Below are positions 5,898 to 44,533 of a stretch of 64,000 bases of DNA, in pieces. A program made the position numbers and the translations under genes. The first letter of the stretch is position 1, and the number at the start of each line of letters is the position of its first letter. The DNA lies in the NCBI GenBank assembly GCA_031082005.1, contig JAVHLR010000001.1, positions 191,251 through 255,250 of the forward strand. Reading direction: 5' to 3'. Below the pieces are notes generated by a model. That model was not told the origin of the DNA. It saw nothing but the letters and a program-made list of their open reading frames with translations, and did no database searches. The DNA comes from Patescibacteria group bacterium (GTDB lineage Bacteria > Patescibacteriota > Patescibacteriia > 2-12-FULL-60-25).

Positions 5898-5924
5898 GTC
5901 ATTCCAGCGCAGGCCGGAATCCAG
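5898..5924. repeat. Palindromic intergenic repeat, GTCATTCCAGCGCAGGCCGGAATCCAG family
   Basis: Near-identical copy at 48193-48219; degenerate copies near 55777 and 63134. Confidence 0.8.
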
Positions 5925-12531: not shown

Positions 12532-12564
12532 CGAGCGCTGGAAGAATCTGGATCGCCTCTCACA

Positions 12565-25537: not shown

Positions 25538-25631
25538 GAACAGGGGATAGGGGCTTTTTCGTCAGCGAGGACCTGTTCGAGGTAGATGAAAACGAGCCCC
25601 GCAGCGACGAAAAAGCCCTTACCCCCTGTTC
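25538..25631. repeat. Composite hairpin element copy 1: 26-nt inverted-repeat arms around a conserved ~42-nt core
   Basis: Left arm GAACAGGGGATAGGGGCTTTTTCGTC, right arm its reverse complement with 2 differences; core AGCGAGGACCTGTTCGAGGTAGATGAAAACGAGCCCCGCAGC. Confidence 0.85.
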
Positions 25632-43967: not shown

Positions 43968-44032
43968 GACAAAAGAACCCCTATCGGAGTTCTTTTGAAT
44001 ATCTGCCTCTTCCATTTTTTCTCCTTTTTTCA

Positions 44033-44122
44033 GCTGGGATGTGAGGCGTATTCTTAGCCGAGGATGTGTTCGAGGTAGACTGGCGCGAGCCCCGCAGGCA
44101 AGAATACGCCTCACATCCCAGC
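44033..44122. repeat. Composite hairpin element copy 2: perfect 23-nt inverted-repeat arms around a conserved ~44-nt core
   Basis: GCTGGGATGTGAGGCGTATTCTT / AAGAATACGCCTCACATCCCAGC; core AGCCGAGGATGTGTTCGAGGTAGACTGGCGCGAGCCCCGCAGGC. Confidence 0.9.
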
Positions 44123-44206
44123 GCCCCTCCCTTTACATTTTCGCCGTTCATGCTAATCTCGAGCCTGCCCTTTGCAGAGCCTTGACCAACAGGAGAGTTT
44201 ACAATC

Positions 44207-44533
44207 ATGGCGCAGGAAAGAAATCGAGCGCAGTCATCGCAACGACCGGGTAACGTCGTCAAAGCATCTTTCCCTATCGGGGATCTGCTGGGCGACGGCC
44301 GCAAGAGCAAACCGGGGCTGCATGCCGGCTCGAAGTGCATCGCGTTCAAGGATGGGAAAGACTGCGGCGCAGTCATCGCGGAGTCGAACCACTCCGAGGT
44401 CCCCATTTGCCGCCCGTGCCAGCAAAGATTGCGCGACGTCGCGATAGGACGGGGGTGGGATATCAATGATCTCGTCGCCATCTCACAGAGACTGCGTCGG
44501 GAGAACGGTCTCAAACGCGAATCCGCGGCATAG
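44207..44533 (+). CDS. Small putative zinc-ribbon protein
   Basis: GSKCIAFKDGKDCGAVIAESNHSEVPICRPCQQRL; CAGGAGAG SD. Confidence 0.7.
   Translation: MAQERNRAQSSQRPGNVVKASFPIGDLLGDGRKSKPGLHAGSKCIAFKDGKDCGAVIAESNHSEVPICRPCQQRLRDVAIGRGWDINDLVAISQRLRRENGLKRESAA

Follow-up and report, generated by a model that had tools for sequence, protein, structure and literature searches.

As a rule, dispersed palindromes of bacteria have conserved stem sequences, and each kind is bound to a single lineage and a single transposase. Integron attC sites are recognised by their fold, are free in stem sequence, carry conserved extrahelical bases and show polarity within their arrays, in all of which they resemble the element described here. 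REP and REPIN sequences, which work with TnpA-REP (RAYT), are short, multi-copy, extragenic chromosomal palindromes thought to serve as single-stranded DNA substrates (PMC6006769, PMC3116915); MITEs are short, non-autonomous, intergenic inverted repeats, and Rickettsia palindromic elements (RPEs) are dispersed palindromes of ~100-150 bp that can lie in frame within genes (both PMC10969869). The element that we describe has likenesses to each of these systems but failed when tested for features that define REP/RAYT elements, attC sites, MITEs and Rfam families. In contrast to the usual dispersed palindrome, it has a short loop motif common to scattered members of many phyla and stems that are different in every copy. 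In its working it comes closest to a folded site of the REP or attC type, but it is filed as neither.

The window, meaning the whole stretch of 64,000 nucleotides that was analysed (G000:C3:191251-255250 of the 1.31-Mb home genome, G000, probably a Candidatus Uhrbacteria genome), holds the element at 44033-44122. The original prediction of perfect 23-nt arms (44033-44055 and 44100-44122, with 44 nt in between) is correct, and the 90-nt hairpin is exceptionally stable both as RNA (z = -9.3) and as DNA (z = -9.1), with 0 of 200 shuffles equalling its fold energy in either case. A first copy had also been mentioned and is present, with 26-nt arms (25538-25563 and 25606-25631) that are 92% complementary; these two are the only strong matches in the window, at 101 and 92 bits, to a covariance model trained on 22 copies from the genome. 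The features, all on the plus strand, are:

25538..25631, + strand: copy 1 of the same element, with arms of 26 nt and core GAGGACCTGTTCGAGGTAGATGAAAACGAGCCCCGCAG
44003..44032, + strand: left pyrimidine tract CTGCCTCTTCCATTTTTTCTCCTTTTTTCA, read from the sequence
44033..44055, + strand: 5' arm of 23 nt, private to the window copy by comparison of arms among copies
44056..44056, + strand: bulged A separating the outer from the inner stem; the register that implies this bulge pairs in 15 of 22 copies
44057..44059, + strand: inner stem GCC, pairing with 44097-44099; the innermost pair is CG in 21 of 22 copies
44060..44097, + strand: conserved core of type A, GAGGATGTGTTCGAGGTAGACTGGCGCGAGCCCCGCAG, whose inner helix is GTTCG/CGAGC; 24 alignment columns are invariant among 22 copies
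44100..44122, + strand: 3' arm, the perfect complement of the 5' arm by inverted-repeat pairing
44123..44131, + strand: right C-rich tract GCCCCTCCC, read from the sequence
44132..44159, + strand: putative promoter TTTACA-16-TAATCT of the downstream gene, assigned by eye; it lies beside the element in sister genome G003 too

The putative promoter was not among the output of the promoter scan. The tRNA-Lys gene is present as predicted, with its own CAAAAGAAC..GTTCTTTTG hairpin, and the downstream gene (44207-44533), which had been called a zinc-ribbon gene, has paired cysteines by eye but no Pfam family above the cut-off.

That the hairpin belongs to a repeated composite element is borne out by the home genome, which has about 34 copies. 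A DNA search with the window element found more than 20 further copies, and the covariance model, built on 22 home-genome copies, gave 35 matches with E no greater than 1, of which 34 have E < 0.01, spread across more than 900 kb. Every home-genome copy has one of two cores, type A (GAGGATGTGTTCGAGRTAGACTGAAACGAGCCCCGCAG) or type B (GAGGACTGTYTGAG and CGAGTTCCGCAG on either side of a variable small hairpin), and arms of ~24 bp. Stems are good in 40 of the 51 copies tabulated from three sister genomes, 22 of these 40 being without mismatch. The arm sequences differ between copies (median best similarity 40%), although some neighbours share theirs (803233/803330, 88% arm identity). Among the 22 home-genome copies, 24 of 26 stem pairs vary at both positions, with a covariation score of 0.595, vs 0.172 when shuffled. 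The arms vary in sequence and remain paired, as expected from the earlier suggestion that pairing is maintained. Composition is stereotyped: the outer portion of the arm is G-rich and the inner portion T-rich (54% T in the inner 8 nt), and around 40 well-paired Uhrbacteria copies the 20 nt to the left are 39% C, 41% T and 4% G and the 12 nt to the right 54% C and 26% T. Home-genome copies adjoin housekeeping genes of every kind, and tabulated copies are nearly all intergenic or overlap gene ends. The exception lies in frame inside the ORF of prmC, the release-factor methyltransferase gene (G000:C3:1033435-1033537; loci L005 and L043), between RPETELM and DIGTGSG, a spot at which G003 holds a different hairpin insert. 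An Rfam 15 search of the element returned no family match, only weak sub-threshold matches to microRNA precursors, and neither sequence-string nor topic queries of the open literature brought up an account of it. Because a near-fixed centre is combined with private, perfectly matched arms, this looks like an undescribed dispersed element kept as single-stranded DNA at replication.

Within the home genus the orientation of the copies appears to follow the replication strand. In the home genome 34 of 35 matches share one strand, and in G003 the minus strand, opposite to the home genome, carries 19 of 20 copies; GC skew is near -0.14 in the home-genome half with most copies and +0.11 in the syntenic half of G003. 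Copies of the home genus therefore lie, as judged from GC skew, on the C-rich, lagging-sense strand regardless of gene direction. The strongly skewed region coincides with mostly co-oriented genes. Gene strand bias does not explain the pattern, since 28 of 29 copies have one orientation vs 71% minus-strand ORFs in the stretch examined (P about 5e-4; genes here are longest ORFs, not the calls of a trained gene finder). Orientation is also unchanged for home-genome copies between divergent genes or immediately before start codons. This tie, the behaviour of mobile DNA that uses a single-stranded lagging strand, is seen in one genus only, local GC skew giving no significant bias in other taxa. 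The skewed half spans G000:C3 ~640-1240 kb, where 31 of the 35 elements fall, and G003:C1 ~140-740 kb; skew in the other half is about zero, a pattern common to the sister species.

Orthologous sites in sister genomes carry the same element, the other type with other arms, 5'-side degenerate relics, or no element at all, and presence and absence are lineage-specific. In G003, compared over flanks ~80% identical, the same element with compensatory arm changes is found at 1052202 and 1070772, and different arms at the same position at 1076987 and 826093; G001 carries type B at 803330, where the home genome carries type A. Empty sites, which the original prediction had named as something to look for, exist in G003 at 803330 and 775032, and at one clear case (803k) no target-site duplication was recognisable by eye in flanks ~20% diverged. 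At the site of the window element, G003 carries one of type B with other arms, in the same position just upstream of TTTACA..TAATCT and about 640 bp from tRNA-Lys, with other sequence in between; in G001 about 3.3 kb separates tRNA-Lys from the downstream gene. Given the distance in G003, the predicted association with tRNA-Lys is not supported and the link is incidental; other copies sit beside housekeeping genes of all kinds. Degenerate copies that adjoin an intact one lie to its 5' side in 13 of 14 pairs (P 0.002, a hand count with polarity and remnants assigned by eye); four cases offer a comparable intact relative, and there the lost arm, again by eye, is the 3' arm. A second class of hairpin, GATGCAGnACGCGAA ... 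GACAAAGTnATGCGC with a GCGAGTAGCGGAGGC-like motif, occupies the same intergenic spots in the G003 orthologues of G000:C3:809439 and 1040344.

To follow the core beyond these species, we searched GTDB genomes with an exact pattern that enforced the core letters, so that its conservation across phyla is partly imposed. Among the matches listed are Betaproteobacteria (Dechloromonas, Gallionella, Thauera and Azoarcus), Coriobacteriia, Lachnospiraceae, Myxococcota, Omnitrophica, Gastranaerophilales and several Patescibacteria; type B is the form that recurs, patchily, in Betaproteobacteria, Coriobacteriia, Lachnospiraceae, Omnitrophica and other Patescibacteria. In the window's own class 10 of 239 genomes are positive and the reversed-pattern control gives 0, and the core motif is therefore both specific and patchy. 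The pattern places no constraint on flanks or outer arms, and in other phyla the outer arms pair with their own partner at a median duplex energy of -29.7 kcal/mol, vs -18.2 with swapped partners, a pairing revealed by this comparison and to which ungapped stem scoring is insensitive across phyla. The middle of the element folds into a small hairpin there too. Many copies are present in scattered genomes, with a near-fixed core and with arms that differ between copies, yet pair perfectly or nearly so. Tandem gene contexts in other phyla divide 20 (++) vs 20 (--), so the element shows no preferred sense with respect to genes; it occurs more often in convergent gaps (22) than in divergent, promoter-containing gaps (7), which are avoided. 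Searches of plasmids, phages and E. coli gave partial, weak or coding-gene matches only, none convincing, and viral contigs one match among 2.9 million. In Betaproteobacteria divergent pairs of cores bracket unrelated ORFs, suggesting that the core motif can serve as an element end.

A Y1/HUH transposase, also named in the original prediction, is not encoded in the home genome: Y1_Tnp (PF01797) has 0 matches in this 100%-complete genome, with 5 control genomes positive. No reverse transcriptase was found in the home genome, as would be looked for with a retroelement or group II intron derivative, and the DUF1016/YhcG nuclease, another candidate partner, is absent from it. Tyrosine recombinases were rejected because their number bears no relation to copy number, G001 having one and the element-free G005 five. 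The home genome has three extra tyrosine recombinase genes, at G000:C3:37090, 64978 and 78017 in its high-GC first 100 kb, which probably belong to integrated elements. No transposase recurs near 118 loci, and the sole large cluster of neighbouring genes there appears to consist of spurious ORFs of the element itself.

Set against the described systems, the element differs from each in definable ways. REPs have a GTAG/CGTC-type foot and family-conserved stems, whereas here no such foot with conserved stems was found, the tip is conserved and the stems are private (arms a median 40% alike), and the home genome is without the Y1 transposase. Unlike attC sites, the element has no R-box arms and no cassettes in the home genome; its arms are unconserved, its copies are dispersed over >900 kb, and no dedicated integrase came to light, G001 having one tyrosine recombinase in all. 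RPEs are known from genes and code for a conserved peptide, whereas this element has variable arms and is nearly always intergenic, prmC being its one in-frame case. MITE ends match a parent IS and their TIRs are common to copies; here no parent IS was found and the arms are private to each copy.

We favour, at a probability of roughly one half, the reading that the element is non-autonomous, dispersed palindromic DNA that acts as folded single-stranded DNA, with arms renewed by template switching or new insertion. On the single-stranded lagging-strand template the element would fold into a long hairpin, and the conserved internal loop at the hairpin tip may be the recognition target of a putative enzyme. 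New copies would take up positions next to the 3' foot of older copies, within the pyrimidine-rich tract by a neighbouring gene, which would leave relics on the 5' side. At replication, template switching from one arm to the other would restore pairing and at times make whole new arms, allowing the stems to drift freely while staying near-perfectly paired. Template switching is documented to create and repair perfect stems in the hairpins of RNA genes (PMC8794818), and IS200/IS605 and REP-type elements provide a precedent for single-strand processing and use of the lagging-strand template (PMC6006769). Weighing against this reading are the failure of the searches to find a mobilising enzyme, the lack of a recognised target-site duplication, the confinement of the strand bias to one genus and the overlap of the skewed region with co-oriented genes. 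The element lends itself to testing, in a natural setting, how replication forks give rise to perfect stems and mend them by template switching. It points to a putative hairpin-recognising enzyme, and it is a marker of genome plasticity in Patescibacteria, whose mobile DNA is poorly described.

The position of the copies at gene boundaries raises the alternative of a structured RNA at mRNA ends, a terminator, 3' stabiliser or insulator selected via the transcript. A stop codon abuts one side of most Uhrbacteria copies, copies occur preferentially in convergent and 3' positions, the fold is highly stable, and core and arms covary as in an RNA. Orientation, however, is independent of gene sense across taxa (the 20 vs 20 split) and single in the home genome, copies between divergent genes or just ahead of start codons included, and the element has no following U-tract, one copy in frame inside prmC and no Rfam family; we consider the RNA reading unlikely. 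Another alternative is an old, vertically inherited and immobile hairpin, with a core spread by tandem duplication and gene conversion and arms drifting by template switching. The element's occurrence at several orthologous positions in G003 and G001 and the arms shared between the neighbours at 803233 and 803330 (88% identity) are what such a history would leave, but it sits poorly with empty sites, type A/type B swaps at one spot, dispersal over >900 kb and a near-identical core in scattered members of many phyla, and we rate it as rather unlikely.

A hypervariable stem with a conserved unpaired motif, single-strand logic and array polarity all resemble attC, and betaproteobacterial divergent pairs flank unrelated cargo genes, as they would if the element were a site-specific recombination site, like an integron attC or IS200/REP end, served by a known recombinase class. 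Against this stand the lack of a Y1 transposase and of a cassette array, the element-bearing G001 with no extra tyrosine recombinase, and conservation of the loop rather than of arms as in attC R boxes, which together make it improbable. Finally, arms unique to each copy and intact copies at one end of small arrays recall a memory or guide system whose arms would be acquired pieces of foreign sequence, a hairpin counterpart of CRISPR spacers. We regard this as highly improbable: arm composition is stereotyped (the T-rich inner 8 nt), and arms are conserved between species with compensatory changes, so that pairing matters more than sequence. As candidate viral spacers, four arm 20-mers had no exact match in 2.9 million viral contigs, a comparison of low power.

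More broadly, folded single-stranded DNA of this kind could form a bacteria-wide class of recognition sites, with a universal internal-loop code GAGGACTGTYTGAG / CGAGTTCCGCAG, renewable stems and a putative chromosomal enzyme, spreading solo in Patescibacteria and bracketing cargo as divergent pairs in Betaproteobacteria; we put this forward tentatively, as possible rather than probable.

Among the betaproteobacterial loci, divergent type B core pairs at L101, L104, L107 and L149 stand ~0.9-1.3 kb apart around unrelated small ORFs, an arrangement that resembles a cargo-carrying non-autonomous element; one ORF between such pairs encodes an 8xMP membrane protein, the others having no family assignment, and GAGTAGCG/GAGCAACG motifs also flank the core in this group. 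The window itself contains another dispersed repeat, GTCATTCCAGCGCAGGCYGGAATCCAGAA, at 5898, 48193 and 55777, and three near-identical terminator-like hairpins, AACGGCAGCCCCTCTCGGCTGCCGTT, at 12554, 13337 and 14104, within 1.6 kb.
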